Shown here one piece after another: positions 551 to 43,043 of a stretch of DNA of 49,701 nucleotides. How positions within the stretch are numbered: position 1 is the stretch's first letter; each line of letters starts with the position of its first letter. This DNA comes from Phycisphaerae bacterium (GTDB lineage: Bacteria; Planctomycetota; Phycisphaerae; Sedimentisphaerales; Anaerohalosphaeraceae): assembly GCA_018052735.1 (NCBI GenBank), contig JAGPMT010000021.1:1-49701 (forward strand), in the 5' to 3' direction. The position numbers and the translations under genes are program-made. The notes beneath the pieces are model-generated. The model did no database searches and had not been told where the DNA came from. It was given only the letters and a program-made list of their open reading frames with translations.

Positions 551-1096
551 ATGGGAGAAGAGACAAAGCACGGAAATACAAGGAATTATCAGCTTTTTAT
601 AAAACTGTATCTGGCCAATGAGCGCCGCATATACGGATACATCAGGTCGTTTATACCTAATTGGTCGGATGTGGATGACCTGATTCAGGAAGTGGCCTCT
701 GTAATGTGGTCTAAATTTGGTGAGTTTGAGCGGGGGACCAACTTTTCCGCATGGGCGTTAAAAATTGCACATAATCAGGTGCTGAATTATTACAAAAAAA
801 GGAAAAAGGATAAGCTTTATTTCAGCGACCAAGTTATTGAAGCACTGGCTGAAAAGGGGATAAAACAGATGCCGGATGTTGAAGAGCGTCTGGAGATTTT
901 GCGAAAATGTCTGAATAAATTGAAAAGCCATGAGCAGACGCTCATTCAGATGCGCTATGAGCCGGGTGCTTCAACCAAAAGCGTATCCTTACAAACCGGC
1001 AAGGAACTGCATGTGCTGTATCGGCTTTTAAATAAAATCCACGCCAAACTTCTACTGTGCATCCGGCAGATGCTTGCGGAGGGAGAACCGCTGTGA
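551..1096 (+). CDS. ECF RNA polymerase sigma factor (planctomycete type)
   Basis: Extracytoplasmic-function sigma-70 factor, 181 residues, that should direct RNA polymerase to its own operon when released by its partner. Region 2 is clear: DVDDLIQEVASVMW followed by the aromatic FSAWALKIAHNQVLNYYKK helix; region 4 covers roughly the last 60 residues (LNKLKSHEQTLIQMRYEPG onward). I chose the ATG at 551 because AGAGGG precedes it at suitable distance; the upstream in-frame ATG at 506 has no ribosome-binding site. Its stop overlaps the next gene's GTG start by four bases (GTGA), a translational-coupling arrangement typical of sigma/anti-sigma pairs. It resembles the sigma factors that are numerous in planctomycetes. 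The glycosidase genes directly downstream suggest that it controls polysaccharide use, which is inference. Confidence 0.85.
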   Translation: MGEETKHGNTRNYQLFIKLYLANERRIYGYIRSFIPNWSDVDDLIQEVASVMWSKFGEFERGTNFSAWALKIAHNQVLNYYKKRKKDKLYFSDQVIEALAEKGIKQMPDVEERLEILRKCLNKLKSHEQTLIQMRYEPGASTKSVSLQTGKELHVLYRLLNKIHAKLLLCIRQMLAEGEPL

Positions 1097-2808
1097 CTTT
1101 TACACCCGAACAATTAAATCGTTTGTTTTACCTGTTCGGAGGTGTGCGGGACGGGACGATCAGCCGGCAGGAGTTTAAGGAGCTCGATGCACTGCTGGCC
1201 GAAAACCAGCAGGTATTGGATCTTTATTGGGATTATGTGTCTTTGTGTACGGATCTGTGCAATCTGCAGGCGGCCACGCAATACAATAAGGGCATTTCTG
1301 TGTCTCTGGAGAGCCGTTTGGAAGAACCGGAGTGTCTCCAGGCCGCATCCGAGGCGGTTTCTCTCGAGATGCTCCAGCTCTGGGGTGAATATGAAAAGCA
1401 GGCACGGGCCATCCATCTGCCTCAGGAGGATGAATCCGAAATACCTGTCTCAAAAATTCCGGTGGAAAAACCAATTCGCAGGGTTTCCCGGTCCTCGCTG
1501 CTGACGATAGCGGTTTCTTTGGCGGCAATATTAGTTTTGCTGGTTTATATTTATCTCCATCCGTATCCGTCCTATGAGGTGGCAACAGTGCTGGATGCGA
1601 TAGATGCACAATCCGCTTCGGGAGCAGCATTTCGTGAAGGCCAGCGTATTTCAGCGATGTCCGATTGGATTCAGCTCGATAAAGGCGTGGTCAAAATTGA
1701 GACGGACAGAGGAGTTCAGATTATTCTGGAAGCTCCTGCGGCATTTCAGTTTACAAGCGGCTCAGAAATTGTATTGGATCAGGGACGTCTTCTGACGCTG
1801 ATAACATCCGAGATGGGAAACGGTTTCAGTGTTCAGACAACAGACTCTAAAATTATAGACATGGGGACGCTTTTCGGCGTTCAGGCAGATCCGCACCGAG
1901 GAACCGAGCTGCATGTGTTCAAAGGGAAAACTGTTTTGATTCCAAGCACGAAAAGCAAAACTAAAAATGCAGTTGATGTATCTGCAGGGCAGGCCTTCAG
2001 CATCGACCGACAGACCAGCGAGGTCAAGCCGATAGCGCTGAATCAGGAGGCGTTTGTACAGGCGATTGATTCCAAGAGCCGTTTTCTTTGGAGAGGACGG
2101 CATAGGATTGACCTGTCGGATGTGGTGGGGGGCGGCAGCGGTTTTGGAACCGGCCGCTTCGGAATGGGATTGAATCCAAAAAACGGGCAGTTTGGAACGG
2201 TGGAAAATCTGATTCGCAAAAGCCCAAACACGTATATTTTAATTCCGTCCAGTGTTTTTATCGACGGAGTATTCGTTCCCAACGGACAAACAGAGCAGGT
2301 CGTCAGCTCTCGGGGGCATTGCTTTGAGGATTGTCCTGCAACATCCGGGGTGTATTACGCTGATATCTCCAATTGCCCTGAATTTATCCGGACAGAAAAA
2401 GACGGCCGCCGTTACCCGCTGGTTTTGGACGGCATCAATTACAGCCAGCCCGGCAAAGCCTGTATTTTTCTCCATGCCAATCTGGGGATAACCTTTGACT
2501 TGGATGCGTTCCGTTCCCGTCTGCCGGATGTCCGAATTGTTTGTTTTCAGGCAGACATCGGCGTCAGCGAATCTGTTCCCGGCTCCTTCTCGGCGGACTT
2601 CTGGGTGCTTGTCGATGGGCGGGTGCGGTACAAGCAGACGGATGTGCAGACCAAAGGGCGTATCGACACGGTTGCTATTGAATTAAATGAGAACGACCGG
2701 TTTTTGACGCTGGCTGCTACAGAAGGCCAGATAGAAGAAGAAAACCGTCCCAGCAGAATCGGTTATGACTGGTGTCTTTTTGCTAATCCTATTTTAATAC
2801 TGGAGTGA
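1093..2808 (+). CDS. FecR-type anti-sigma/sensor protein with C-terminal NPCBM-like domain
   Basis: Probable membrane anti-sigma factor for the preceding ECF sigma, 571 residues from a GTG start at 1093 with GGAGGGAG upstream. Residues 1-130 form a cytoplasmic helical region (LNRLFYLFGGVRDGTISRQE) of the type that binds sigma. One membrane segment spans about 136-155. A FecR domain follows at about 190-290 (KGVVKIETDRGVQIILEAPA, then IDMGTLFGVQ and the HVFKGKT strand). The C-terminal 150 residues, including LDGINYSQPGKACIFLHANL and FSADFWVLVDGRVRYK, match the NPCBM/NEW2 carbohydrate-binding-like fold. The layout suggests an outside sensor domain tethered through the membrane to a sigma-binding domain. 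GH2 starts four bases after its stop. Direct sugar binding and signalling are inference; FecR proteins elsewhere sense TonB-dependent transporters. Confidence 0.82.
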   Translation: MTFTPEQLNRLFYLFGGVRDGTISRQEFKELDALLAENQQVLDLYWDYVSLCTDLCNLQAATQYNKGISVSLESRLEEPECLQAASEAVSLEMLQLWGEYEKQARAIHLPQEDESEIPVSKIPVEKPIRRVSRSSLLTIAVSLAAILVLLVYIYLHPYPSYEVATVLDAIDAQSASGAAFREGQRISAMSDWIQLDKGVVKIETDRGVQIILEAPAAFQFTSGSEIVLDQGRLLTLITSEMGNGFSVQTTDSKIIDMGTLFGVQADPHRGTELHVFKGKTVLIPSTKSKTKNAVDVSAGQAFSIDRQTSEVKPIALNQEAFVQAIDSKSRFLWRGRHRIDLSDVVGGGSGFGTGRFGMGLNPKNGQFGTVENLIRKSPNTYILIPSSVFIDGVFVPNGQTEQVVSSRGHCFEDCPATSGVYYADISNCPEFIRTEKDGRRYPLVLDGINYSQPGKACIFLHANLGITFDLDAFRSRLPDVRIVCFQADIGVSESVPGSFSADFWVLVDGRVRYKQTDVQTKGRIDTVAIELNENDRFLTLAATEGQIEEENRPSRIGYDWCLFANPILILE

Positions 2809-2812
2809 ACAA

Positions 2813-5800
2813 ATGAAGCACGGATGGCTTGTATTTGTTGCAATCAGCATTGTATCGGCTGGATGGGGGAAATCTTTATCTGCCTCTGTTTCTCTAAGCG
2901 GAACGTGGCGGTTTGCCCTTGACAAAGAAGGGCAGGGAATCAGTCAGGAATGGTTTAAGCGGGTGCTGCCGGAAACAATCCAATTGCCCGGAACGCTGCA
3001 GGAGCAGGGCTTTGGAGATGAAGTATCTACAGCCACACCGTGGATGTCGCGGCTGCATGACAAACATTGGTATCTGCGGGTAGACTATGAACGATATGCC
3101 CAGCCGGGCAATATCAAGATACCCTTCTGGCTTCAGCCCGAACGGCATTATATTGGCTGGGCGTGGTATCAGCGGGACATAGAAATCCCGGCCGTCTGGC
3201 AGGGCCGGCGCGTGGTACTGACTCTGGAGCGACCCCACTGGTCTACGACGGTCTGGCTCGATGAGAAGCAAATCGGCTTCAATGACGGGCTTTCAGCGCC
3301 TCATATTTACCCATTAGGTCTTGTAAGTCCGGGGCGGCATCGGTTGACGATTTGTGTTGACAACCGAATGCTGCAGGACATCCGCGAAGACGCTCACAGC
3401 ATCACCGATTCCACGCAAACCAACTGGAATGGCCTAATCGGCACTCTTTCTTTAACCTCTACGACGCCCGTTTGGATTGATGATGTGCGGGCGTTTTCAG
3501 ACATAGAAACAAAAACAGTACATTTGAAAGTATGGATAGGCAATATGACCGGCAAGGCCGGCAGCGGTACCTTGTATGTCAATGATAAGCCGATTCCCGT
3601 ACAATGGACGGCGGAGGCAGGATATGCAGAAGCGGATTATCCGCTGGGGGACAGTGCTGCCCTGTGGGATGAGTTCCATCCTTCGCTGCACCGGCTGACG
3701 CTGAAGCTGACGGGGCAGCAGGCCGACGACCAGCGGGAACTGACAGTCGGATTGCGGCAAATCAAGGCCGAAGGGGGGCGCTTTTATTTAAATGGGCGCC
3801 GGGTTTTCTTCCGCGGGACGCATGAAGGGTGTCAGTTTCCGCTGACCGGCTATCCGCCCACAGATGTGGAATCGTGGCGGAAAATATTCAAGATCTGCAA
3901 AGATTATGGTCTTAACCATATGCGGTTTCATTCCTGGTGTCCTCCGGAAGCGGCTTTTACAGCGGCCGATGAAATGGGCATCTATCTGCAGCCGGAATGT
4001 TCCAACTGGGGACAGTATTCATCCCGCGATACCCGCCTTGTGGAATGGCTCGAAAGGGAAACAGAGCGAATCATTCGGGCTTACGGCAATCATCCTTCTT
4101 TTGTATTGTTTTCAACCGGCAATGAGCCGGCCGGGCCTTGGCAGGAACCCTTGCTGAAATGGTGCCGGGACTGGAAGGCCCGCGACAACCGGCGTCTGTA
4201 TGCCAGTCAGACTGGCCGTTTCTTTGCGGAACGTCCCGGCCCTGTGCCGGATATTGACTATCTGGATACAATGCGCATCGGCTCGTATATGTTTCGCGGT
4301 GCAACCGGCTGGTTCGGCAGCGATTTTTCCCGTTCTTTGGAAGGAACGACGTACCCTGTTATTTCCCATGAAACAGGTCAATGGTGCGTGTATCCAGATT
4401 TTTCGGAAATCCCCAAATACACCGGAAAACTGAAACCGAAGAATTTTGAGATATTCCGAGACTCGCTGGCCGAACACGGCATGCTGGACCAAGCGGGCGA
4501 TTTTCTGCTTGCCAGCGGGAAGCTGCAGGCCGCCTGCTATAAAGAGGAAATTGAGGCCTTGCTGCGAACACCCGGAATGGGCGGATTTCAGCTTCTGGAT
4601 CTGCACGATTATCCCGGACAAGGGACGGCACTGGTTGGGATTTTGAATGTTTTCTGGGAATCCAAAGGATACATTACACCGTCGGAGTTCCGGCGTTTCT
4701 GCAATGCGACAGTTCCGCTGGCGCGGATGAAGCGCCAGATTTATACAACAGCCGAACAGCTCAATGTTGATTGTGAGATTGCGCATTTCGGAGCGCAGCC
4801 GCTTCAGGATGTCCAGCCGTTTTGGAAAATTGTTGATTCCGGCGGCAAAGAAGCTGCCGGCGGTCAGTTTGAAAGAAAAACCATAACTGTCGAAAACGCT
4901 ATTCCGCTGGGGACGGTTTCAATCTCTCTGGGCAGTCTCAAAGCGCCGGCCAAATACCGGCTTGTAGTGGGGCTTTTGGGCATGGAGATTGAGAATGACT
5001 GGGAGTTCTGGCTGTATCCGGCGCAATTGGATACAGCAGTGCCGCAGGATGTTGTTCTTACACGTTCTTTCGAAGCGGCGGCAGCGGCACTTCAAAAAGG
5101 GCAGAAGGTTTTGCTGATGCCGACTTCGGACCAGCTTCAGTGGCAAAGTCCGCCTATCGGCCGGCTGCCGATTTTCTGGAATCGTCTGATGGGTCCCGGC
5201 TGGGAGCGGTTTTTAGGGCTGGTCTGCCAGCCGTCTCATCCGGCGCTGGCATTCTTCCCGACGGATGAGCATTACGATTGGCAATGGCAGGATGTTTTCA
5301 GCCCTGCGTGCCGGGCTGTGAATATCGATGCTCTGCCCAAGACGCTCAAGCCGATTGTGCAGATGATTGATGACTGGAACCGCAATTATAAACTGGCCGC
5401 AGTATTTGAATGCCGCGTCGGTTCAGGCCGGCTGCTGGTGTGTGCGGCGGATTTGGAGTCAAACCTCGATAGGCGGCCGGCCGCACGCCAGCTTCGCCGG
5501 AGTCTGCTGGATTATATGGGGGGCAGTCACTTTAATCCGTCGGCAGAGATTTCGTTAGAGCAGTTGGAAGGGCTGCATTTTGATAACCGAATAATGAAGA
5601 AACTGCAGGCCGCTGTTACCGCCAGCATGCAGAATCCCGGCAATCCGGCTTCCAATATCCTTGACGGCAATCCCAATACCTATTGGCTTGCGGGAGGACG
5701 CGGGCAGGGGCATCCGTATGAGTTGGCAATTACATTTCCGCAGGCCGTTGCGCTGAAGGGGCTTGTATGGATGAACCGCCAGAACCACCGGGAACATGAA

Positions 5801-6100
5801 GGTGATGTCCGTGATTACAGGATTGAAATCAGCAGTGACGGACAGAATTGGACACTGGCAGCACAAGGCCAATTGAAATCAACATTTCATCCTCAAACGA
5901 TAGATTTCGGCAAAACAACGGACGCCGGCCGCATTAAAATACATATCTTGTCCGGATTTGGGGGCGATTCCACTGCTTCTGTAGCCGATGTGGCTGTTCT
6001 TTATGCCGGTCCGAAGCTGGCAGATGATGGATCGCAGCCGAGCATCTATCAAAAGCAGAAAACAGCGACAGAAGAAATATTTGAAGGGCCGATCCCTTAA
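2813..6100 (+). CDS. Secreted glycoside hydrolase family 2 protein with C-terminal F5/8-type (discoidin) domain
   Basis: Retaining exo-acting glycosidase, 1095 residues, with an N-terminal signal peptide (cleavage near residue 24). Domain order: GH2 sugar-binding jelly roll (about 90-200, with WAWYQRDIEIP and the ERPHWSTTVWLDEKQIG strand), Ig-like domain, TIM barrel from about 320 (RFYLNGRRVFFRGTHEG, MRFHSWCPPEAAFTAADEMG). The proposed acid/base is E438 in STGNEPAG and the nucleophile E520 in ISHETGQW; both are inferred from GH2 motif positions. Residues about 940-1070 form a discoidin-like domain (SNILDGNPNTYWLAGG, RIEISSDGQNWTLAAQG). GGAGTG precedes the ATG and the gene follows fecR by four bases, so it is in the sigma operon. 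Substrate cannot be read from sequence; beta-galactosidase or beta-glucuronidase action on pectic or xylan side chains are the likely options. Confidence 0.85.
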   Translation: MKHGWLVFVAISIVSAGWGKSLSASVSLSGTWRFALDKEGQGISQEWFKRVLPETIQLPGTLQEQGFGDEVSTATPWMSRLHDKHWYLRVDYERYAQPGNIKIPFWLQPERHYIGWAWYQRDIEIPAVWQGRRVVLTLERPHWSTTVWLDEKQIGFNDGLSAPHIYPLGLVSPGRHRLTICVDNRMLQDIREDAHSITDSTQTNWNGLIGTLSLTSTTPVWIDDVRAFSDIETKTVHLKVWIGNMTGKAGSGTLYVNDKPIPVQWTAEAGYAEADYPLGDSAALWDEFHPSLHRLTLKLTGQQADDQRELTVGLRQIKAEGGRFYLNGRRVFFRGTHEGCQFPLTGYPPTDVESWRKIFKICKDYGLNHMRFHSWCPPEAAFTAADEMGIYLQPECSNWGQYSSRDTRLVEWLERETERIIRAYGNHPSFVLFSTGNEPAGPWQEPLLKWCRDWKARDNRRLYASQTGRFFAERPGPVPDIDYLDTMRIGSYMFRGATGWFGSDFSRSLEGTTYPVISHETGQWCVYPDFSEIPKYTGKLKPKNFEIFRDSLAEHGMLDQAGDFLLASGKLQAACYKEEIEALLRTPGMGGFQLLDLHDYPGQGTALVGILNVFWESKGYITPSEFRRFCNATVPLARMKRQIYTTAEQLNVDCEIAHFGAQPLQDVQPFWKIVDSGGKEAAGGQFERKTITVENAIPLGTVSISLGSLKAPAKYRLVVGLLGMEIENDWEFWLYPAQLDTAVPQDVVLTRSFEAAAAALQKGQKVLLMPTSDQLQWQSPPIGRLPIFWNRLMGPGWERFLGLVCQPSHPALAFFPTDEHYDWQWQDVFSPACRAVNIDALPKTLKPIVQMIDDWNRNYKLAAVFECRVGSGRLLVCAADLESNLDRRPAARQLRRSLLDYMGGSHFNPSAEISLEQLEGLHFDNRIMKKLQAAVTASMQNPGNPASNILDGNPNTYWLAGGRGQGHPYELAITFPQAVALKGLVWMNRQNHREHEGDVRDYRIEISSDGQNWTLAAQGQLKSTFHPQTIDFGKTTDAGRIKIHILSGFGGDSTASVADVAVLYAGPKLADDGSQPSIYQKQKTATEEIFEGPIP

Positions 6101-6190: not shown

Positions 6191-8947
6191 GTGGCTGTTA
6201 TAAAATGCAGCGGGAGCAAGCGGTTATTAATAACAGGGCTTATGGGATGGATGTTTCTTATCTGCAGCTGTGCAGCACAACCGACGGCTTCGCCGTGGCC
6301 GGCAATGGAGGCCCAATGCCGGCCGTGGACCTATTGGTGGTGGATGGGCAGCGCGGTGGAGAAGGACAGTATTGCGTTTCAATTGGAGGCATATCAAAAG
6401 GCAGGGCTGGGCGGAGTCCATATTATTCCCATCTACGGCGTCAAAGGATACGAAAAGCAGTATATTGAGTATCTCAGCCCCCAATGGTTGGAGATGCTGG
6501 ATTATACAGTGCGTCAAGCCCGTCAGCTTGGAATGGGCGTGGATATGACGCTGGGCACCGGCTGGTGCTTTGGGGGGCCGACGATTACAAATCAGCAGGC
6601 CAACGCGGTTGTTGAGCATGCCGTGCAGACTATTGAAGCAGGTCAATCATCGGTAAAACTCAGATCTGCATTGCCGTTGTATGTTGCTGCTTATGGTCCC
6701 GGACAAAAGGCGGTGGATTTGACAAGCCGCCTGAAACCCGATGGCACCCTCGACTGGACAGCTTCCGACGGTACATGGCAGGTGTATGAACTCTGGCAAA
6801 AGCCGTCCGGCCGAAAGGTCAAGCGGGCGGCACCGGGTGGCGAAGGGCATATGCTCAATCCGTTTTATCGGCCGGCGATGGAAGAATATCTGGCTTGGTT
6901 CGATCAGGCATTTAAGGATTACAGCGGGCTGAAGCCCCGGGCGACTTATCATGATTCGTATGAATATGTCTCCAATTGGTCGCCGGATTTACTGAGCGAG
7001 TTTTACAAACGGCGGGGTTACCGTCTCGAAGAGTTTTTGCCGGAGTTTCTGGGATACAGTCAAGACACCGAACGGACTAGCCGCCTGAAGGGAGATTACC
7101 GTCAAACGCTGTCAGATTTGATGGTAGAAAATTATTCGCTGTGGGTCCAATGGTCGCATAAAAACGGCTTTATAACCCGCAATGAAGCCCACGGTTCTCC
7201 GGGAAACCTTCTTGATTTGTATGCTCTTGCTGATATCCCCGAGACGGAGTTTTTCCGACTGGACCGCAATCCGCTGGTGGCCAAATTCGCTTCATCGGCG
7301 GCTCATACGGCAGGCCGTCTGCGAACCAGCAGCGAGACAGGAACATGGCTAAAAGAGCACTTTCATGTGACGCTGGGCCATTTGAAAAATTTTATTGATG
7401 GGCTGTTTATCAGCGGAATCAACCATATTTTTTATCACGGTACCTGTTATTCTCCCAGAGATGCCGAATGGCCCGGTTGGGTCTTTTATGCATCCACCCA
7501 GATGAATCCCCGCAATTCTATCTGGTATGATGTGAATGCCCTGAATGCCTATATTACGCGATGCCAATCGGTATTGCAGGCCGGCCGGCCGGATAATGAC
7601 TTGCTGGTCTATTGGCCAATCAGCGACTACTGGCACAATCCGAAGGGTATGAATCTGGATATGACCGTCCACAGTACGCAATGGTTGGCCCAGCAGCCCA
7701 TCGGCCGATTGGCAAAAGAGTTATGGAACAAAGGATATGCCTTTGACTATATTTCTGACCGCCAGCTTCAGCAGGTCTATTATGACACCGGCAGAATCAA
7801 AGTTCCCGGCGGCGATTATCGGGTTGTTGTTGTGCCGCATTGTACCTATATCCCTCTTGACAGTCTGCAGAAGTTGTTTTTGCTGGCTCAGCAGGGGGCG
7901 ATCATTCTGTTTGAGAAAGCGCTGCCGCAGGATGTACCGGGATTGGGCGACTTGGAAAGACGTCGCGCTGCTCTGAAAGCATTAATGGACTCAATAATTT
8001 GGCAGCCGCAGTCCGGTTTGGTGAAGACAGGCAAAGTCGGCCAAGGTGCATTTTATGTCAGTGAAGATGTCGCATCTCTAATGAATCAAGCCGGCATTCA
8101 GCGCGAAACTCTGGTTGACCATAAGGGATTATATTATATCCGCCGCAGAGATGATAAAGGATATTGGTATTTTGTAACCAATCAGGATGAACAGTTTACA
8201 GAAAATCCAGCTGTGTCTGCTTTTGCCGGATGGATTACTCTGACTCGGCCGGCACAATCAATTCTTATTATCGACCCAATGGATGCCAAAACCGGATTCA
8301 GCCCAATGCGGCAGACACAGGACGGAAGGACACAGGTTTATATCCAATTGCAAGCCGGCCAATCGCTGATTCTGCGTCTTTTTGGTGAAAAACAAAATGA
8401 TGCCGTCCGATGGACATGGCATCAGGATGCGGATTCCCTGAGGCTGGAAGGCAGCTGGAAAGTAGATTTTATTACGGGCGGGCCGCAGCTTCCGCCTTCT
8501 TTTTCGACCACTGTGCTTGAATCTTGGACCAAACAAGGCCAAGAGGCTCAGCGATTTGCAGGCACGGCCCGCTATCGTCTGACTTTTGACTTGCCCCAGA
8601 TGAGGGCTGATGCCTGGCGGCTGGACTTAGGCAGAGTGGCTGCCAGTGCACGTGTTCGTCTGAACGGACAGTCTCTGGGAACAGTGTTCTCTGTGCCGTT
8701 TGCCGTCGAAGTACCCAAGACACTGCTGAAGTCCAATGCCAATCAGCTGGAGATTGAGGTAACAAATCTTTCGGCCAATCGCATTCGGGATTTAGATATA
8801 CGCCAAGTGCCGTGGAAATACTTTGGGGATATCAATATTGTTAATATTGATTATAAAAAGTTTGATGCTTCGCAATGGGAGATTGTTGAATCGGGTCTTT
8901 TGGGGCCTGTGACCCTTATTGCCTTAAACGAGTACAGCCCGCAGTAA
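6191..8947 (+). CDS. Glycoside hydrolase family 106 alpha-L-rhamnosidase (probable lipoprotein)
   Basis: Inverting alpha-L-rhamnosidase, 918 residues, expected to remove terminal rhamnose from rhamnogalacturonan fragments. The family signature is the N-terminal CRPWTYWWWMGSAVEKDSIA block followed by LEAYQKAGLGGVHIIPIYG. It continues with MGVDMTLGTGWCFGGPTI, a barrel region with RATYHDSYEYV and FRLDRNPLVAKFASSAAHTA, then INHIFYHGTCYSP. A C-terminal beta-sandwich near 830-900 (WRLDLGRVAASARVRLNGQ) is usual in GH106. The GTG start at 6191 has AAAGGA upstream. The leader LLITGLMGWMFLICSC contains a lipobox-like end (Cys27), suggesting lipid anchoring. It lies in the sigma operon between GH2 and the URO-D-like gene. 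Family assignment is firm, exact linkage preference is not. Confidence 0.87.
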   Translation: MAVIKCSGSKRLLITGLMGWMFLICSCAAQPTASPWPAMEAQCRPWTYWWWMGSAVEKDSIAFQLEAYQKAGLGGVHIIPIYGVKGYEKQYIEYLSPQWLEMLDYTVRQARQLGMGVDMTLGTGWCFGGPTITNQQANAVVEHAVQTIEAGQSSVKLRSALPLYVAAYGPGQKAVDLTSRLKPDGTLDWTASDGTWQVYELWQKPSGRKVKRAAPGGEGHMLNPFYRPAMEEYLAWFDQAFKDYSGLKPRATYHDSYEYVSNWSPDLLSEFYKRRGYRLEEFLPEFLGYSQDTERTSRLKGDYRQTLSDLMVENYSLWVQWSHKNGFITRNEAHGSPGNLLDLYALADIPETEFFRLDRNPLVAKFASSAAHTAGRLRTSSETGTWLKEHFHVTLGHLKNFIDGLFISGINHIFYHGTCYSPRDAEWPGWVFYASTQMNPRNSIWYDVNALNAYITRCQSVLQAGRPDNDLLVYWPISDYWHNPKGMNLDMTVHSTQWLAQQPIGRLAKELWNKGYAFDYISDRQLQQVYYDTGRIKVPGGDYRVVVVPHCTYIPLDSLQKLFLLAQQGAIILFEKALPQDVPGLGDLERRRAALKALMDSIIWQPQSGLVKTGKVGQGAFYVSEDVASLMNQAGIQRETLVDHKGLYYIRRRDDKGYWYFVTNQDEQFTENPAVSAFAGWITLTRPAQSILIIDPMDAKTGFSPMRQTQDGRTQVYIQLQAGQSLILRLFGEKQNDAVRWTWHQDADSLRLEGSWKVDFITGGPQLPPSFSTTVLESWTKQGQEAQRFAGTARYRLTFDLPQMRADAWRLDLGRVAASARVRLNGQSLGTVFSVPFAVEVPKTLLKSNANQLEIEVTNLSANRIRDLDIRQVPWKYFGDINIVNIDYKKFDASQWEIVESGLLGPVTLIALNEYSPQ

Positions 8948-8984: not shown

Positions 8985-10151
8985 ATGAAGAAAGAGACAA
9001 TGACTTCGCGTCAGCGGGTATCCGCTGCATTGAACCATCAGCAGCCGGACCGTGTGCCGATAGATCTCGGCGGTTTTCAGACCGGCATTCATGTAAAGGC
9101 CTACAAAAATCTGCTGGACTACTGGGGCCTTCAAGAGAAGATTCAGATTATGGATCCAGTTCAGCAGCTTGCCAAGCCCAGCGAAACTGTTTTGCAGCGG
9201 TTTCACGTGGATATTCGCTATATAACATCCAGAAGTCCGGCGGGATTTGACGGATCCATAAAAACCAATCGGCGAAGCGGCCGTATATGGCACGACCTGA
9301 CCGATGAATTCGGCGTTATATGGTCAATGCCCGATGACCGGCCGCTGTATATGGATATTTCCTATCATCCTTTGGCAAATGCATCCATTACGGAGTTGAG
9401 ACATTATCCGTTTCCCAACGGCAAAGACCCGTCCCGTTTTGCCGGTCTGCGGGATGACGCGGCTCGTCTGCGTCAGGAAACTCCCTATGCCCTCAGCACC
9501 GGCATCGGCGGGGTGATTTATGAGACTTGCTGGTATCTGCGGGGGCTGGAGCGGTGGTATATAGATATGATGGAAAATCCAGCCTTTTGCGAAATGCTGC
9601 TGGATAAGATGCTGGCTTATTGGATGGATTATTATACCGGCTTTTTAAGAGAAGTCGGCGACCTTGTGGATATTGTAATGCTCGGCGATGATTTGGCAGG
9701 TCAGGATGGGCCTCTGTTCAATCCGGAGTTTTATCGAAAGGTTGTCAAGCCCCGTCAGAAGAAGCTGATTCAGCATATCAAATTGCTGACAGCAGCCAAA
9801 ATCTGGTATCATACCTGCGGGGGGTGCAAACTCTATATTCCTGACCTGCTGGACAATGGAATTGATATCCTCAATCCCATTCAAATCGGTGCTGCTGGAA
9901 TGGAGCCGGCACAGATCAAGCGCCAGTTTGGCGATAAACTGGTTTTCTGGGGCGGGGCGATTGACTCCCAGCATGTACTGCCTTTTGCGTCACCGCAGCA
10001 GGTCCGGGAAGAAGTCCGCCGGCATCTTGAAATATTCAAGCCCGGCGGCGGCTATGTCTTTAACAATATTCACAACATCCAAGCCGAAGTTCCTGTCGAA
10101 AACATCGTTGCGCTGTATGATGCGGCTTATGAATACGGATTTTATGAATAA
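8985..10151 (+). CDS. Uroporphyrinogen-decarboxylase-superfamily protein, corrinoid methyltransferase-like
   Basis: A 388-residue protein of the URO-D fold that is probably not the haem enzyme. The N-terminus has TSRQRVSAALNHQQPDRVPI, the usual opening of the MtaA/CmuA-like branch. Near residues 271-273 it carries YHTCGG, an His-x-Cys pair like the zinc site of methylcobamide:CoM-type methyltransferases, followed by NGIDILNPIQIGAAGM and LVFWGGAIDSQHVLPF. The C-terminus GGYVFNNIHNIQAEVPVENI is also typical of this group. No signal peptide is present, so it acts in the cytoplasm. It sits between GH106 and GH105 with short gaps (37 and 27 bases). A role in demethylating methyl-ether sugars such as 4-O-methylglucuronate is a hypothesis; no corrinoid protein or partner methyltransferase is encoded in this window. 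ATG 9000 is an alternative start. Confidence 0.75.
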   Translation: MKKETMTSRQRVSAALNHQQPDRVPIDLGGFQTGIHVKAYKNLLDYWGLQEKIQIMDPVQQLAKPSETVLQRFHVDIRYITSRSPAGFDGSIKTNRRSGRIWHDLTDEFGVIWSMPDDRPLYMDISYHPLANASITELRHYPFPNGKDPSRFAGLRDDAARLRQETPYALSTGIGGVIYETCWYLRGLERWYIDMMENPAFCEMLLDKMLAYWMDYYTGFLREVGDLVDIVMLGDDLAGQDGPLFNPEFYRKVVKPRQKKLIQHIKLLTAAKIWYHTCGGCKLYIPDLLDNGIDILNPIQIGAAGMEPAQIKRQFGDKLVFWGGAIDSQHVLPFASPQQVREEVRRHLEIFKPGGGYVFNNIHNIQAEVPVENIVALYDAAYEYGFYE

Positions 10152-10178: not shown

Positions 10179-11387
10179 ATGAAAAACAGCAGGATTTACT
10201 GGATATGGGCAATTGCTCTGATGGCAGGTTTTATGTTCAGCACAGCTGGCTGTTCGGCAGAACACCAGAAAGAGGCTGGTCATTCTGGGACAGCTAAAGC
10301 CGACTATGAGCTGCCCCCGCAAGCGGATATACTGGCAGCCATGCGGCTGGCCAATCAGTATTTTATGGATAAGTGGCCGGACCCCGGCAAACCGATTGTA
10401 ACGGATAAAACGCGTCCCAGCAATATCTGGACCCGCGGCACGTATTATGAAGGGCTGATGGCTCTTTATGAAATCGACCCGCAGAAAACCTATTATGACT
10501 ATGCGGTTGCTTGGGGACAAGCCCATCAATGGGGGCTGCGCAGCGGCAGCAGAACCCGCAATGCCGATGACCAATGCTGCGGGCAAACCTATATAGATTT
10601 ATACCGCATTGATCCCAAACCCGAGCGGATCGCCCAAATCAAGGAATGCATTGATGCCATGGTCAGCAGTGATAAAAACGATGACTGGTGGTGGATTGAT
10701 GCGCTTCAGATGGCAATGCCGGTGTTTGCTCGTTTGGGAGTTCTTTATCAGGATAACCGCTACTTTGAAAAAATGTATCAGCTCTATATATATACCAAGG
10801 AAAAACACGGCGACAACGGCCTGTATAATCCGCAAGATCATCTGTGGTGGCGGGATAAGGATTTTGACCCGCCTTACCGCGAACCCAACGGCGAGGATTG
10901 CTACTGGTCGCGGGGCAACGGCTGGGTGTTTGCGGCGCTGGTTCGGGTTTTGGACATAATGCCTTCGGATGCGCCGCACCGCGACGAGTATATCAAAACC
11001 TTCCGGGAAATGGCCGCTGCCCTGCTGCCGATTCAGCGGCCGGACGGCTTCTGGAATGTCAGTCTGCACGATCCAACCAACTTCGGCGGCAAGGAATTGA
11101 CGGGAACGGCATTCTTCACCTATGGATTTGCCTGGGGGGTTCGCAAAGGCATGCTGGAAGAAGCCGTCTATCTTCCGGCTGCTGTTCGCGGCTGGAACGG
11201 AATGGCCAAAGAAGCGCTGCATCCCAACGGTTTTCTCGGATATGTTCAGAGTACCGGCAAGCAGCCCTCCGACGGCCAACCTGTAACGTATGACAAAGTG
11301 CCCAATTTTGAAGATTATGGATTAGGCGGGTTTCTTTTGGCCGGCAGCGAAATCTACAAATTATCTCAGCAGTACAGAAGCCGGTAA
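10179..11387 (+). CDS. GH105 unsaturated rhamnogalacturonyl hydrolase, lipoprotein
   Basis: Hydrolyses the unsaturated uronate that pectate or rhamnogalacturonan lyases leave at the non-reducing end of oligosaccharides. The 402-residue product has a signal peptide ending in FSTAGC with Cys25 as probable lipid-anchor residue. The (alpha/alpha)6-barrel family signatures are visible: IWTRGTYYEGLMALYE, NADDQCCGQTYIDLY, WWWIDALQMAMPVFARLG, YWSRGNGWVFAALVRVLD and ELTGTAFFTYGFAWGVRKGM. Length matches GH105. TGGAG precedes the ATG. Its substrate is what the divergent PL11 lyase at the window start would produce, which supports a shared rhamnogalacturonan pathway. The unsaturated glucuronyl hydrolase family GH88 is a relative, but the motifs fit GH105 better. 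Confidence 0.87.
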   Translation: MKNSRIYWIWAIALMAGFMFSTAGCSAEHQKEAGHSGTAKADYELPPQADILAAMRLANQYFMDKWPDPGKPIVTDKTRPSNIWTRGTYYEGLMALYEIDPQKTYYDYAVAWGQAHQWGLRSGSRTRNADDQCCGQTYIDLYRIDPKPERIAQIKECIDAMVSSDKNDDWWWIDALQMAMPVFARLGVLYQDNRYFEKMYQLYIYTKEKHGDNGLYNPQDHLWWRDKDFDPPYREPNGEDCYWSRGNGWVFAALVRVLDIMPSDAPHRDEYIKTFREMAAALLPIQRPDGFWNVSLHDPTNFGGKELTGTAFFTYGFAWGVRKGMLEEAVYLPAAVRGWNGMAKEALHPNGFLGYVQSTGKQPSDGQPVTYDKVPNFEDYGLGGFLLAGSEIYKLSQQYRSR

Positions 11388-11424
11388 ATCAACTCTGCTT
11401 ATGATAAAAGTGATCAGGTGTCAG

Positions 11425-13524
11425 ATGACTTTATGTTGCATGAGAAGCCAACGATGGATTCTGTATTGGCTGGCTGTTTTTCTCGGAAGTACGGCAGCCG
11501 GCGAAGACGGTTACCGCTTGTGGATGCGTTATGAAAGAGCGGATTCCGCCTGTCTGCTGCAGTATCACAGGCAGGCAACTGAAATTGTTATTCAGGGGCA
11601 GACCGAGACATTTACGGTGATTGAAAAGGAGCTGCAGCAGGGCCTGTCCGGTTTGTTGGGAGTTGCGGTTCCTTCTGCATCGTCTGTTACACAGGATGGA
11701 GCCATTGTCGTCGGCACATACCAGACATCGCCGATTATACAGGAATTGTTCAGCAAAAGCAGAATAGACAGTCTTGGTTCAGAAGGATATCTTCTTTGCT
11801 CTGTGTTCTGGAAGAAGCATCCGATAACAGCCGTTGCTGCTAAAGAGCCGATAGGAGCACTCTATGGGGTCTTTCACCTGCTCCGGCTGATGCAGACTCA
11901 GCAGCCGCTTCAAGAGCTCTGCATTCATCAGAAGCCGCAGATTCAGTATCGGCTTCTGAATCATTGGGATAATCTCAATGGTTCTGTGGAGCGCGGCTAT
12001 GCCGGCCGCTCATTGTGGCAGTGGAACCGGCTTCCCAGCCAGATTGAACAGCGTTACACGGATTATGCCCGTGCCAATGCTTCCATCGGCATCAATGGAA
12101 CTGTGTTGAACAATGTAAATGCCCAAGCCGAAGTTTTGACAAGTCAATACCTGCAAAAGGCCGCTGTGCTGGCGGATATTTTCCGTCCTTACGGCATTCG
12201 GGTGTATTTGAGCGTAAAATTTACAGCCCCTATTGAAATCGGGGGGCTGGATACGGCAGATCCTCTACGGCCGCAGGTACGTCAATGGTGGCGTCAGAAG
12301 GCAGAGGAAATATATCGTTTTATTCCCGATTTTGGCGGATTTCTGGTCAAGGCCTATTCGGAAGGCCAGCCGGGCCCGCAGGCGTACAACCGGACGCATG
12401 CGGATGGGGCCAATATGCTCGCCGAGGTCCTGCGGCCGCATGGAGGCATTCTGATGTGGCGTTCGTTCGTTTATGATACTTCTATTGATTCAGACCGAGC
12501 CAAATGCGCCTATAAAGAGTTTGTGCCGCTGGATGGCCAATTCGGTCCGAATATCTTCATTCAAACGAAGAATGGACCGATTGACTTTCAGCCGCGAGAG
12601 CCGTTTAATCCGCTGTTTGGGGCAATGCCGAAAACGCCGCTGATGATGGAGCTTCAGATTACACAGGAATACACCGGACAGGCCAAACATTTGGTCTATT
12701 TAGCGCCGCAGTGGAAAGAAGTGCTTTTCTCAGATACTTTTGCCAACGGTCCCAACACTCTGGTGAAGGATATTGTTGACGGCAGTGCCCAAGGCCATTC
12801 TATCAGCGGCATAGCTGGTGTCAGCGGAATCGGCAGCGACCGCAACTGGACGGGCCATCATTTCTCACAGGCTAACTGGTATGCTTTTGGACGCTTGGCT
12901 TGGGATATGTCGCTGTCAAGCGGGCAAATTGCCGAAGAATGGATTCGGATGACCTGGACCAATGACCCGCAATCTGTATCAGCGATACGCTGTATGATGG
13001 AAGGTTCCTGGCAAGCGTGTGTCGATTATATGACTCCGTTGGGGTTGCATCATTTGATGGCCGAAGGGCATCACTACGGTCCGGATCCGGGATTTGTGCA
13101 CGCCGGCAGGGCAGATTGGAGTTCCACGTATTATCATCGTGCCGACTTGGAAGGACTCGGCTTTGACCGCACCGACAAAGGCAGCAATGCGGTCAGCCAG
13201 TATCATCCGCCGCTGCGGGATTGGTGGAATTGCTCCGAAACCTGCCCGGAAAAATACCTCCTGTGGTTTCATCATATTCCATGGAATCAGCAGCTTAGCT
13301 CGGGACGCACGCTGTGGAAAGAGTTGCAGGCCCATTACCAAAGCGGAGTAGAATATGTCGAATGGATGCAGCGTGTCTGGGAATCACTCAAGGGGAATAT
13401 AGATGCCGAACGTTACAAAGATGTACAGCAGCGTCTGACAGTACAGTACGAAAATGCTGTCCAATGGCAGAATGTATGTCTGACTTACTTCGGGCGTTTT
13501 GCAAAGGGAGATTCAGACAAGTGA
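11425..13524 (+). CDS. GH67 alpha-glucuronidase
   Basis: Removes (4-O-methyl)glucuronic acid from the non-reducing-end xylose of glucuronoxylan oligosaccharides by inversion. From the ATG at 11425 (AGGTG four bases upstream) the product has 699 residues with a signal peptide (ILYWLAVFLGSTAAG); the upstream ATG at 11401 lacks a ribosome-binding site. The N-terminal domain starts GYRLWMRYERAD. The barrel shows the catalytic set: E313 in KAYSEGQPGP as acid, D387 in GPIDFQPREP and E415 in QITQEYTG as the base pair; the spacing agrees with characterised GH67 enzymes. It is the last gene of the sigma operon, 37 bases after GH105, and converges on the GH30 gene whose product it would process. Oddly, it is grouped with rhamnogalacturonan genes rather than the LacI unit. 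Confidence 0.9.
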   Translation: MTLCCMRSQRWILYWLAVFLGSTAAGEDGYRLWMRYERADSACLLQYHRQATEIVIQGQTETFTVIEKELQQGLSGLLGVAVPSASSVTQDGAIVVGTYQTSPIIQELFSKSRIDSLGSEGYLLCSVFWKKHPITAVAAKEPIGALYGVFHLLRLMQTQQPLQELCIHQKPQIQYRLLNHWDNLNGSVERGYAGRSLWQWNRLPSQIEQRYTDYARANASIGINGTVLNNVNAQAEVLTSQYLQKAAVLADIFRPYGIRVYLSVKFTAPIEIGGLDTADPLRPQVRQWWRQKAEEIYRFIPDFGGFLVKAYSEGQPGPQAYNRTHADGANMLAEVLRPHGGILMWRSFVYDTSIDSDRAKCAYKEFVPLDGQFGPNIFIQTKNGPIDFQPREPFNPLFGAMPKTPLMMELQITQEYTGQAKHLVYLAPQWKEVLFSDTFANGPNTLVKDIVDGSAQGHSISGIAGVSGIGSDRNWTGHHFSQANWYAFGRLAWDMSLSSGQIAEEWIRMTWTNDPQSVSAIRCMMEGSWQACVDYMTPLGLHHLMAEGHHYGPDPGFVHAGRADWSSTYYHRADLEGLGFDRTDKGSNAVSQYHPPLRDWWNCSETCPEKYLLWFHHIPWNQQLSSGRTLWKELQAHYQSGVEYVEWMQRVWESLKGNIDAERYKDVQQRLTVQYENAVQWQNVCLTYFGRFAKGDSDK

Positions 13525-13617: not shown

Positions 13618-15729
13618 TTAATGGGGCTCCAGAATAGCCGGCTGCCAATTCTCTATGCATCCGACAGTTTCCGGCTCATTGCAAACCATCCACTGCTTGA
13701 GCAGGGCTGCTGCATCGAACAGGTCGATATGATTATCCCCTGTTAAATCAGCCGAGTAGTTGGGTGCCGGCGGCTGCGGCGTTTCAGTCAGCCATTGGTG
13801 AGCCAGCAGCAGCAAATCGCTCCAATCGACACGGCAGTTTCCATCAAGGTCTTCCGGCAGGCGGAAACCCCATGCGATGACCTTGCTGCAATCAGGGGGA
13901 ATAACCGAGCCGGTTAAGGACAGAGTAGTGATAGACATTGCTGGGATACTCAATGTATCGGTTGGATTAAATGTTCCCAGATGTTCAGTATTCTGCGAGG
14001 CCGTACTGCGATAAATGTCGCCGCTGTTGATTGAGAACTCAGGGATAGAAACAGTCAGCTCGACGGCAGCAGAGCCGGGATTGATAATAACTGCTGACAG
14101 ATGCTGATTATCGGGACTGATGTAGGCAGATATCCGCAGCCCGGCAATATCCAGAACGGTTCCCAGCCGCTGCCAGCCGGAGTGAATAAACGCAGAAAAA
14201 TGCTTGAATCCATAATAATCGTTATTGAGAGTATAGCCGGATGAAGTTAAGGTAATCAGACCTCCGCTGTTCCAGAATAAATCCCAATACAAGTAAGCTG
14301 CAACCCCTTCAACTGTCAGAGAATTGTGCAGCAGCAGGGCTAAATTCAGGGCATCCGGCCAAGCATTGGTTGCATCCTCATATTCCGACTGAAACAGGGG
14401 TTTGGTGCCGTATTGAGAGGCGAAATTAGCCATGGTCGTTAGATAGCGGTCCGGCTCATCTCCGCAGCCGGCACCGCCAGTACTGTTGCTGCAGTTGTAC
14501 AGATGGTGAGCATAGCCGTAGACATGGGAATCATCGATAAGATTGCTGATATAATTCCCAATATTTGAAAATCCGGTTGTTTCCGGGGCCAGCATCTTCG
14601 GCATCAAAAGCCCCATCTGCCCATTCAGCTCCTGCCAGACCGCTTCAAAAGCCAAATTATAGCCGGCCATTGTCGAGGTCTCTGTCGCCCATAAATAGCA
14701 GGTGTCCCACCCGGAATTGACATAGTCCGGCTCGTTCTGGATATTAATATAAGTTGCTGCAATTCCCCGGGAAGCCCAACTAACCAGACTTCTATACCAC
14801 CAATTTGCGAATTCCGGATACATATACTCGTTGTACTCATTTTTTTTCAGCGTTCCTTCACGGGTGTTGTTGTTGCTTTTCAAATAGGCCGGCGGAGACC
14901 ATGAAGAAATCATAATTTTCAACGGCCTTCCGGTAAGAGCCCGTGCTTCCCGAATGATTTGAGCGGTACGGTCCATATATGCTGAATCGATTTCAAAGGT
15001 ATTCCGGATTCGATAAATCTCCAATCCAAGCTGATTAAACATCAAATCATACAAAGTGTTTTTCTGGGGATGATTGACCAGCAGGCCTTCATACCATGCG
15101 CCGGCAGCACCGAATCCTTCAATAATCTGATGACGATCAGAGATATCAATGCGACAGCTTGCTGTACTGGAATCTGGTCCAAGAACTTCGGCGTCATCGA
15201 CATAGAAACTGATTCCGGCTGCAGGACCTTCAAAATAGATATCCAGATAAGTCAATGTGCCAGAAACAGCCAGCGTAAATTGCCCTGTTAATTGGGTCCA
15301 TTGGCTATTACTGACTGTTTTCTGGGAAATCCCGATATATTTTGTGCCCGCATCGTCCCGCTGCTCAACCGTCAATTTAATGGTGTCGCTGGCGGTATTT
15401 TCAAGCCGTACCCAGCCCGAGATGGTTACGGTTTGTCCGGGTGCTGCTTTGCCGAGTATCGATTGTTTGATGCCTTGCCAGACGGCTGTTCGGTTATAGG
15501 CACGGCCGCATTGCAAGCCGCTGCGGGGGGAGGCGGTGACCGCAGAAATGGAGCAGTTTCTGGCTTGCCAGCCGGTTGTGCCTTCTTCAAAGCCGGGATT
15601 GGTTAACAAATTGACAGCACTGTAAAGGAGAGAATTAAAGGTAAAAAAGACAAATAAAAGTCCGTATTTGATAGATGTGTGAAAATTATATTTGTACAAT
15701 AAACGGCAAGTATGGATGTGTTCTATCAC
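13618..15729 (-). CDS. Secreted GH30 (probable glucuronoxylanase) with N-terminal CBM and two dockerin-like repeats
   Basis: 703-residue secreted endo-acting enzyme. The GTG start at 15729 has AAGGGGG upstream, then a signal peptide ends near LLYSA (38). Residues about 40-185 form a CBM4/9- or CBM22-like beta-sandwich (LLTNPGFEEGTTGWQA, ISFYVDDAEVLG). The GH30 barrel begins RIDISDRHQIIEGFGAAGAW; acid/base is E333 in IQNEPD and nucleophile E449 in QSEYED, assigned by motif. GH30 side beta-domain ends at SIPAMSITTLSLTG. The C-terminus has two calcium-loop repeats, DLDGNCRVDWSDLLLLAHQW and DLTGDNHIDLFDAAALLKQW, of dockerin type. Glucuronate-directed xylanase action (GH30 subfamily 8) is inferred from the GH67 and GH3 context. 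It has its own promoter with a LacI-family operator. Confidence 0.85.
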   Translation of the reverse strand: MIEHIHTCRLLYKYNFHTSIKYGLLFVFFTFNSLLYSAVNLLTNPGFEEGTTGWQARNCSISAVTASPRSGLQCGRAYNRTAVWQGIKQSILGKAAPGQTVTISGWVRLENTASDTIKLTVEQRDDAGTKYIGISQKTVSNSQWTQLTGQFTLAVSGTLTYLDIYFEGPAAGISFYVDDAEVLGPDSSTASCRIDISDRHQIIEGFGAAGAWYEGLLVNHPQKNTLYDLMFNQLGLEIYRIRNTFEIDSAYMDRTAQIIREARALTGRPLKIMISSWSPPAYLKSNNNTREGTLKKNEYNEYMYPEFANWWYRSLVSWASRGIAATYINIQNEPDYVNSGWDTCYLWATETSTMAGYNLAFEAVWQELNGQMGLLMPKMLAPETTGFSNIGNYISNLIDDSHVYGYAHHLYNCSNSTGGAGCGDEPDRYLTTMANFASQYGTKPLFQSEYEDATNAWPDALNLALLLHNSLTVEGVAAYLYWDLFWNSGGLITLTSSGYTLNNDYYGFKHFSAFIHSGWQRLGTVLDIAGLRISAYISPDNQHLSAVIINPGSAAVELTVSIPEFSINSGDIYRSTASQNTEHLGTFNPTDTLSIPAMSITTLSLTGSVIPPDCSKVIAWGFRLPEDLDGNCRVDWSDLLLLAHQWLTETPQPPAPNYSADLTGDNHIDLFDAAALLKQWMVCNEPETVGCIENWQPAILEPH

Positions 15730-36600: not shown

Positions 36601-37215
36601 GTGGCTTTTTTTAATCACTACAGCGAGACCAAAAGCTTCGATGATATAACCTTGGTTCGCCAATGCCAAAGAGGCGATTCGAAAGCAATGGACTGCCTGA
36701 TTCTTAAGTATCAGGATAGAATATATAATACAATTCTAAAAATTTGCCAAAATCGTGATGATGCGGCGGAACTTACACAGGATACGTTTGTCAAAGTATT
36801 AGAGAGCATTCAGAGCTTCAGCGGCCGAAGCAGCTTTTATACTTGGCTGTTTCGGGTGGCTGTAAATCTGACGCTCAACCACTGCCGTAAGCGGTTCAAG
36901 ACTACGGCTGTATCGCTGGATGCAGCAAATGAGCATTTTGAAAAAGACAAGGAACGTCTTGTATCTATGCTGGCCGATCCAAATGGACCGGATCCGGCAG
37001 AGATTGCTCAGCAGAAAGAGCTGGCACAAATTGTAGTGAACCTGATAGGCCAGTTGCCGCAGGATTTTCGTGTGGTTCTGGTATTGCGGGATATAGAACA
37101 GATGGGTTATGCTCATATTGCCGATGTTCTTGAGCTTGAAATTGGCACGGTAAAAAGCCGCCTAAGCCGGGCACGTACGTTATTGCGGGAATTATTAGAA
37201 CCGGTGCTGACATGA
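36601..37215 (+). CDS. ECF RNA polymerase sigma factor (RpoE-like)
   Basis: 204 residues. Region 2 is TLVRQCQRGDSKAMDCLILK, DDAAELTQDTFVKVLESIQS and SSFYTWLFRVAVNLTLNHCR; region 4 is LPQDFRVVLVLRDIEQMGYA followed by HIADVLELEIGTVKSRLSRA. The GTG start at 36601 is preceded by a weak GAGTGGA. The last codons overlap the ATG of the anti-sigma gene by four bases (ATGA), so the two are probably made in a fixed ratio. It belongs to the general RpoE-type ECF group, distinct from the planctomycete-type factor at 551, and no polysaccharide gene is attached to it. The signal is unknown; envelope stress is a reasonable guess. Confidence 0.9.
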   Translation: MAFFNHYSETKSFDDITLVRQCQRGDSKAMDCLILKYQDRIYNTILKICQNRDDAAELTQDTFVKVLESIQSFSGRSSFYTWLFRVAVNLTLNHCRKRFKTTAVSLDAANEHFEKDKERLVSMLADPNGPDPAEIAQQKELAQIVVNLIGQLPQDFRVVLVLRDIEQMGYAHIADVLELEIGTVKSRLSRARTLLRELLEPVLT

Positions 37216-38207
37216 ATGACACACCCAAGCCAGAAATTGAGGAATTGCTGAGCGCCTTGATTGATGAGGATGCCAGCGAGCGTCAAAAGACCGAATTCAA
37301 GCGGCTTTTGCAGCACGAACCGGCTTTGGCCGATCAGCTTGCCGCATTGCGGCATCAAAAGCAGCTGCTTAATGCATTGCCCATAGAACCGGCACCGGAA
37401 TCCTTGCTGGCCGATATCAAAGCTGCGATGGAACGTAATCTGATTCTCGGAGATTATCGGGAATCTTCACGGTCGGTAATGGGCGCCGGCAATTTGTTGT
37501 TGCGGCGGATTTTGACGGTTGCAGCGATGCTGCTGCTGCCGTTAGGATTGCTGGGTGTGGTGGTTTTTGAGATTCTCAAGCCGCCCGCTGAAATTTCCAG
37601 CTATGTTCCTGCAAAACAAACATTGGCCGACGAACATACAGCATCATCTCTTCCCTCTGTTCCTGCTGCTCCAACGCCGCCATTCGAAGGTTTTCTTGTA
37701 TTTAAAACAAGTCAGCCGATGGCTGTCGGCAATTTCATTGAAAAAAAGGTTTTTGACATCGGGTTAATACGTTTTATGGTGCCAAATCGCATCGATGATA
37801 CGATGACCTATCAGATTACAGCCCCTGCTGAAAAGATTGCTGAATTGGTTGATGCCCTGCAGCCGGTTTGGCCTCGCTGTGAGCAGGTAATCCTGAATGT
37901 TTACAATAGCGCAAACAAGCAGACGATTGAAATTCCTAATGTACAGCCGGAGCAAATCAGCACTTTAGCCAGAGAAGACAGCCCTGAACTTCTTGCTCGA
38001 TTGGCCGTACGATATGCATCAGCAAATTTAAAAAGGGATGATTCTTATGCAGGCAGACCGGCCGGAATAGAAAATCAGTTATCGGACAACATATATCCCG
38101 AGCTAAATCCTCCCATCTTAACAGGGCGATATGCCCCCAATCAAACGACTCCAGTTTTAGAACAGCCTGTAAAGCTGCATATTTCCGTAAAGCGAAATGC
38201 CGAGTAA
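37212..38207 (+). CDS. Membrane anti-sigma factor
   Basis: 331-residue protein. Residues 1-60 (EIEELLSALIDEDASERQKT, LLQHEPALADQLAALRHQKQ) form the N-terminal helical anti-sigma domain as in RseA-type proteins, but without the His/Cys zinc motif of ZAS domains. A single membrane helix covers about 95-115 (ILTVAAMLLLPLGLLGVVVF). The C-terminal 215 residues face outside; they contain a domain of unknown family (FMVPNRIDDTMTYQITAPAE, VILNVYNSANKQTIEIPNV) that resembles the DUF of other planctomycete anti-sigma proteins only loosely. Translational overlap with the sigma gene supports the pairing. Regulated proteolysis is likely for release, by analogy. Confidence 0.8.
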   Translation: MNDTPKPEIEELLSALIDEDASERQKTEFKRLLQHEPALADQLAALRHQKQLLNALPIEPAPESLLADIKAAMERNLILGDYRESSRSVMGAGNLLLRRILTVAAMLLLPLGLLGVVVFEILKPPAEISSYVPAKQTLADEHTASSLPSVPAAPTPPFEGFLVFKTSQPMAVGNFIEKKVFDIGLIRFMVPNRIDDTMTYQITAPAEKIAELVDALQPVWPRCEQVILNVYNSANKQTIEIPNVQPEQISTLAREDSPELLARLAVRYASANLKRDDSYAGRPAGIENQLSDNIYPELNPPILTGRYAPNQTTPVLEQPVKLHISVKRNAE

Positions 38208-42639: not shown

Positions 42640-42683
42640 TGTTTGATAACCTCCATACTATCTTAGGGATAGTTGAAATTCAG

Positions 42684-42974
42684 TTATTTTTCGACGATAC
42701 CCAGAATCTCGCTTTCGCGAAGAATCTTGTATTCCGTCCCTTCTATCTCGACTTCCGAGCCGCTGTATTTGCCGTAGAGCACGATATCATTCTTCTTGAC
42801 ACTCATACTGCCGCGGCTGCCGTTGTCCAGAAGCTTGCCGGGGCCGACAGCAATCACCTTGCCCATCAGCGGTTTTTCTTTGGCTGTGTCCGGCAGAACG
42901 ATTCCGCCGGCGGTTTTGTTTTCTGCTTCCTGCGGCTTGACGACCACGCGATCTTCCAATGGTACCAGTTTCAT
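42684..42974 (-). CDS. groES: Co-chaperonin GroES
   Basis: 96-residue Hsp10 lid of the GroEL cavity. It has [20 protein letters not shown] at the start, a mobile loop about residues 17-33 ([17 protein letters not shown]), and [20 protein letters not shown] and [12 protein letters not shown] at the end, all typical. AGGAGAG lies before the ATG. It sits between the two groEL genes, 69 bases after the first and 44 bases before the second, so one GroES may serve both. Confidence 0.97.
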
Positions 42975-43043
42975 ATATGTCTCTCCTGTTTAATTGATTG
43001 TCGGTTATGTTGCTGTTTTCGGCAGTATTCTGCCGTTTGGGCT

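Follow-up and report, generated by a model that had tools for sequence, protein, structure and literature searches.

Planctomycetes are important degraders of complex polysaccharides, and little is known about how they sense their substrates. The question is raised by a locus on the Phycisphaerae bacterium contig JAGPMT010000021.1, of which a stretch of 49,701 nt was analyzed on the forward strand (hereafter the window, to which coordinates refer unless another locus is named); the source genome comprises 2.88 Mb in 70 contigs. In this locus, a gene for an extracytoplasmic function (ECF) sigma factor is followed by a gene for an anti-sigma factor that joins a FecR-type domain to a carbohydrate-binding module (CBM) of the CBM51 (NPCBM) family, and then by genes for carbohydrate enzymes. 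Is the anti-sigma factor itself the sensor? We consider it moderately likely that this protein is a one-protein periplasmic glycan sensor, similar to RsgI in its action, assembled from cell-surface-signaling (CSS) parts, and tuned here to rhamnogalacturonan-I. No description of FecR joined with NPCBM was found in the literature library searched.

Architecture of the FecR-CBM51 anti-sigma factor

The anti-sigma factor (571 aa; 1093–2808, + strand) had been described in an initial annotation, made from the sequence alone, as having a sigma-binding N-terminus, one membrane helix, a FecR domain and an NPCBM-like C-terminus. Single-sequence Pfam support is marginal for both NPCBM (24.4 bits; cut-off 23.9) and FecR (18 bits; cut-off 24, which is passed by 11 relatives in the source genome but not by the window copy). 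Despite these weak scores, both assignments are confirmed because the predicted folds match both families. The AlphaFold model of the full protein has a predicted local distance difference test (pLDDT) score of 89.9, and residues 335–571 modeled alone reach 94.8.

Residues 1–128 (1093–1476, + strand) constitute the predicted cytoplasmic sigma-binding domain, which is helical in the model with a disordered segment at residues 72–87. The model contains a single transmembrane helix (residues 133–155; 1489–1557, + strand), as annotated, with basic residues on its N-terminal side. The FecR/PupR-type juxtamembrane domain extends over residues 160–333 (1570–2091, + strand), and the fold of its main part (residues 186–333/336) matches PupR (6ovk; Z 15.9, 2.8 Å, 135 residues) and BDI_1681 (4m0n; Z 15.8). 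This domain includes the pair G258–T259, which is invariant across 84 aligned sequences and may or may not correspond to the Gly-Thr pair at which FoxR self-cleaves (PMC11637429). Residues 335–571 (2095–2805, + strand) form a CBM51 domain with insertions, the proposed sensor, which is assigned by PF08305 and by its predicted fold, with a match to the CBM51 structure 2vmh (Z 15.5, 2.1 Å, 139 residues; next unrelated fold, Z 9.3). H461 and N463 are conserved in this domain. It thus shares the β-sandwich of CBM51 modules such as Clostridium perfringens GH95CBM51, but differs from the latter in its low identity (~19%), its size (~240 residues, with insertions) and its fusion to an anti-sigma factor rather than an enzyme.

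CSS anti-sigma factors (FecR/PupR) have the same adjoining ECF sigma gene, N-terminal helical domain, single membrane helix and all-β periplasmic juxtamembrane domain. PupR consists of a cytoplasmic domain, a membrane helix, a juxtamembrane subdomain and a C-terminal STN domain, and both periplasmic subdomains are required for binding of the PupB transducer (PMC7186176). In the model of the window protein, by contrast, CBM51 occupies the place of the STN domain of PupR, and the genetic setting is one of carbohydrate rather than iron. Signaling through a TonB transducer, as in PupR-type regulators, would accord with the clear PupR type of the juxtamembrane domain and with the adjoining ECF sigma gene, but the STN domain needed for PupB binding appears to be replaced, and no TonB-dependent transducer was found among the scanned window genes (to ~29 kb; the contig ends just upstream) or among the families listed in the neighbor tables for other genomes; such signaling is very improbable. 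The FecR-CBM51 protein would thus depart from classical CSS in a defining feature of that system.

Pairing with the sigma factor and exchange of sensor ends

The sigma gene (551–1096, + strand) encodes an ECF factor of the gvs1 type (TIGR02989; 8e-43, 146 bits against a cut-off of 124.6), the orthologues of which are 62–65% identical. Its start codon is the ATG at 551, although another ATG in the same frame occurs further upstream, at 506, and its stop codon (1094–1096) is overlapped by the GTG start of the anti-sigma gene (1093) within the sequence GTGA. A gene for a glycoside hydrolase (GH) of family 2 begins 4 bases past the anti-sigma stop, and the start and stop positions agree with the compact gene order that had been reported. 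The pairing of sigma and FecR-CBM51 genes is not due to chance, because a FecR-type gene comes immediately after each of the 12 gvs1-type sigma genes in the source genome and because a gvs1-type sigma gene lies directly upstream of 79 of the 82 FecR-CBM51 genes for which an upstream gene was called.

Pairwise sigma identity is correlated with that of the cytoplasmic part of the anti-sigma factor (rho 0.34; partial 0.34, with 0 of 300 permutations as high), but hardly with that of the FecR part (rho 0.07) or the CBM51 part (rho 0.08). Tracking of the sigma factor by the cytoplasmic domain alone fits sigma binding at the N-terminus, in line with the initial annotation, and a sensor that evolves independently. 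At locus L072 (6666–8874), the FecR and CBM51 parts belong to the window's clade (≤60% and 56%), whereas the sigma factor and cytoplasmic domain are closest to other lineages; from these sequence affinities, L072 looks like a natural chimera in which the sensor half was swapped between sigma lineages.

The 12 FecR-type anti-sigma factors of the source genome have CBM51 (nine), LamG (two) or repeat-rich (one) C-terminal ends, and these interchangeable ends on one chassis support the RsgI-like logic that had been suggested. FecR anti-sigma genes with LamG (two) or repeat-rich (one) ends, each adjoining its own gvs1 sigma gene, are present at L017 (4710–6422), L018 (9484–11229) and L019 (9584–11302). 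An evenly balanced proposal is that the STN domain of a FecR/PupR regulator was exchanged for interchangeable glycan-binding modules, giving substrate-specific switches (12 in the source genome), and that sensor halves moved between sigma lineages, as at L072.

Upstream of the sigma gene, the box AAACATCTATATCC (483–496, + strand) is a candidate promoter part. Four orthologous loci (L021, L023, L024, L025) have a similar box before their sigma genes, which was spotted by eye and is the top match of each locus with a matrix derived from those same sites; this recurrence fits self-activation. A general promoter motif upstream of ~80 sigma genes was also sought and rejected, as only T- and A-rich tracts exceeded shuffles.

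Rhamnogalacturonan setting of the window's clade

The initial annotation covered positions 551–6100, beyond which the operon continues to 13524. That the pair heads a carbohydrate-enzyme operon holds at the window, specifically for rhamnogalacturonan-I. The operon genes beyond the anti-sigma gene, all on the + strand, encode a GH2 enzyme with an F5/8-type-C domain that is exo-β-1,4-galactosidase-like (2813–6100; NF049890, 1004 bits, under its 1500 cut-off), a GH106 α-L-rhamnosidase (6191–8947; profile searches), a URO-D family protein of MtaA/CmuA-like type (8985–10151; profile searches), a GH88/GH105 unsaturated uronyl hydrolase (10179–11387; PF07470, 4e-84) and, as the final gene, a GH67 α-glucuronidase (11401–13524; profile search), the only operon enzyme that points to glucuronoxylan. 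Divergent from the sigma gene, the N-terminus of a polysaccharide lyase (PL) of family 11, a rhamnogalacturonan-I lyase, is truncated at the contig end (3–374, − strand; PF18370 RGI_lyase, 1e-26). The nearest NCBIfam models of the GH2 and GH106 enzymes, with scores below the cut-offs, are named after Bacteroides BT4151 (exo-β-1,4-galactosidase) and BT4145 (α-L-rhamnosidase), respectively, which we take to be members of the B. thetaiotaomicron rhamnogalacturonan-I locus. Judged by their family assignments, PL11, GH105, GH106 and the putative β-galactosidase are a coherent rhamnogalacturonan-I set. The URO-D protein, a relative of MtaA/CmuA-like corrinoid methyltransferases placed between GH106 and GH105/GH67, might process methyl groups of 4-O-methyl-glucuronate or pectin. 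The gene beyond GH67 (13618–15729) is on the opposite strand, convergent with the operon, and its product carries CBM4_9, weakly resembles GH30 and terminates in a type I dockerin.

Is this setting shared by relatives? A scan of named genomes yielded 80 further FecR-CBM51 loci, nearly all from Sedimentisphaerales or Phycisphaerae; one (L050) comes from a contig with Balneolaceae in its title, which is probably planctomycete DNA that was mis-binned, or else reflects a transfer. The initial statement that FecR-NPCBM proteins are widespread in planctomycetes is not supported, as full-length matches occur in just 9 of 294 planctomycete genomes, mostly of one family, in a phylum scan that scored four candidates per genome and so gives per-genome counts that are too low. 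The clade of the window's anti-sigma factor has a support of 100, and its eight loci were picked by sigma and anti-sigma similarity, ahead of the enzyme count. Close homologues of PL11, GH106 or GH2 are present in 6/8 of these loci versus 5/80 others (p = 2e-5), and homologues of GH97 in 4/8 versus 0/80, although L023, L024, L025 and L026 are close relatives, which leaves ~4 independent lineages, so that p-values overstate independence. L072, which has the window's anti-sigma clade with a different sigma factor and is without PL11, GH106 and GH2, was counted among the 80 others, and contig ends cut short L022 (4.5 kb) and L026. The divergent PL11–sigma arrangement is found in the window, L020, L023 and L024; homologues of the window GH2 gene lie beside the regulator in L023, L024 and L025, and those of GH106 in L021, L023 and L024. 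L023 and L024 additionally carry GH28, GH43, GH97 and GH2. The rhamnogalacturonan setting is therefore conserved for the window's clade across several species.

Could the neighborhood reflect chance in a genome rich in carbohydrate enzymes, with a regulator that answers an unrelated envelope stress? In the source genome, the 10-kb surroundings of FecR regulators are not enriched in GH43 genes (1/18), and random control stretches also contain some glycosidases among the families listed, in tallies that list 25 Pfam families each for neighbors and controls and serve as an estimate, not a test. However, GH43, PL11, GH28 and GH106 taken together are near FecR regulators in 5/28 cases at 10 kb (p = 0.02) and in 9/28 at 15 kb versus 7.8% expected (p = 2e-4, a somewhat favorable value, as both radii were tried), the link to PL11, GH106, GH2 and GH97 is clade-specific, and the sensor has a glycan-binding fold. 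Chance is thus an unlikely explanation. Glycosidases are moderately enriched near FecR regulators, and sharply so in the window's own clade.

The idea that such regulators generally head glycosidase operons is weakened by their next genes. In 82/86 relatives, the gene 3′ of the anti-sigma gene shares its strand; the product of this next gene is a secreted LamG/Ig protein in 38/86 and a prepilin-like protein in 22/86. Many of the LamG/Ig partner proteins end in a dockerin-like motif and others in PEP-CTERM (loci L020–L099). A cellulosome, considered on account of the dockerin-like ends, was ruled out, as cohesin was not found in the source genome. LamG open reading frames also cluster within 10 kb of the FecR regulators of the source genome (13/42 versus 6% expected, p = 6e-7), as GH43 does not. 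These data would suit a pair that mainly controls a surface apparatus composed of these LamG/Ig and prepilin-like proteins, with a CBM51-like domain that responds to exopolysaccharide made by the cell itself or to a partner protein, the glycosidases being incidental. This alternative is less likely: the window operon has glycosidases and no LamG gene, and its clade keeps rhamnogalacturonan enzymes across species. Moreover, the LamG proteins may be glycan-capture proteins, in which case it would merge with glycan sensing.

Since CBM51 is in the receptor-contacting position and the close relatives in several species lie amid rhamnogalacturonan genes, the anti-sigma factor is probably a one-protein pectin sensor. 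Besides the small number of independent lineages, several points weigh against this reading. In most relatives, secreted LamG proteins and not glycosidases are the products of the next genes, and PL11 also adjoins three regulators from other clades. Alignments to the PDB sequences stop short of the region in which CBM51 ligand residues would be placed on the model. In addition, a matrix search found no box resembling AAACATCTATATCC before PL11, GH2, GH97 or GH106.

Proposed switch and its relation to known systems

Taking gene order, predicted folds, co-evolution, sensor exchange and clade setting as observed, we infer ligand, binding, proteolysis and regulon as follows. As long as ligand is absent, the anti-sigma factor would retain the gvs1 ECF sigma factor through its helical cytoplasmic domain, and the periplasmic part would consist of the FecR/PupR juxtamembrane domain capped by CBM51 in place of STN. 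Rhamnogalacturonan-I oligosaccharides that reach the periplasm, probably through their galactose- or rhamnose-bearing ends, would bind CBM51, whereupon the FecR part would become accessible to proteolysis. Cleavage of the membrane helix by a site-2 protease would follow, and the released sigma factor would direct transcription of its own operon and perhaps also of the divergent PL11 gene. FecR-type regulators are cleaved by RseP after prior processing (PMC5411451, PMC11637429). An M50 site-2 protease is encoded in the source genome, and likewise in all control genomes.

RsgI, which operates through autocleavage, RseP and ClpXP (PMC12203970), provides a precedent for this logic. Like RsgI/SigI of Clostridium (Acetivibrio) thermocellum, the system has a one-protein transmembrane anti-sigma factor, interchangeable ends of carbohydrate-binding type, several paralogues per genome and predicted control of polysaccharide-degradation genes. 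It differs in that its sigma factor is of the gvs1 ECF type (TIGR02989) rather than the SigI group, and in that its periplasmic part is of the FecR/PupR type rather than the RsgI autocleavage domain, with a sensor that would be periplasmic in a Gram-negative cell; no RsgI profile matched the anti-sigma factor in Pfam or NCBIfam scans. The FecR-CBM51 protein would thus work like RsgI without belonging to its family. Construction from unrelated parts, as initially proposed, stands relative to RsgI, but the FecR part is of known origin, namely the juxtamembrane domain of CSS regulators. The ECF/anti-sigma pairs and hybrid two-component system regulators of Bacteroides also have many paralogues and sense glycans at the envelope (a function only predicted here) beside carbohydrate-enzyme genes; in contrast to them, the present system is without a SusC/TonB transducer or histidine kinase, and the CBM on the anti-sigma factor itself is the proposed sensor. 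The parts are known, and their combination, as far as the model indicates, is that of a CSS regulator with its transducer-contacting domain exchanged for glycan-binding modules.

If this is correct, iron-type CSS has been rebuilt as glycan sensing without a TonB transducer, which provides a further design of polysaccharide-sensing one-protein anti-sigma factor, in Gram-negative planctomycetes. The sequence of the sensor domain would then be linked directly to substrate, and carbohydrate regulation in planctomycetes would be predictable from it.

Elsewhere in the window, a second sigma gene has a 4-base overlap with a gene for a 331-aa protein (36601–38207), which resembles a further sigma/anti-sigma pair. 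At 41023–44702, a GroES-like gene lies between two GroEL-like genes, as judged by their appearance in the sequence.

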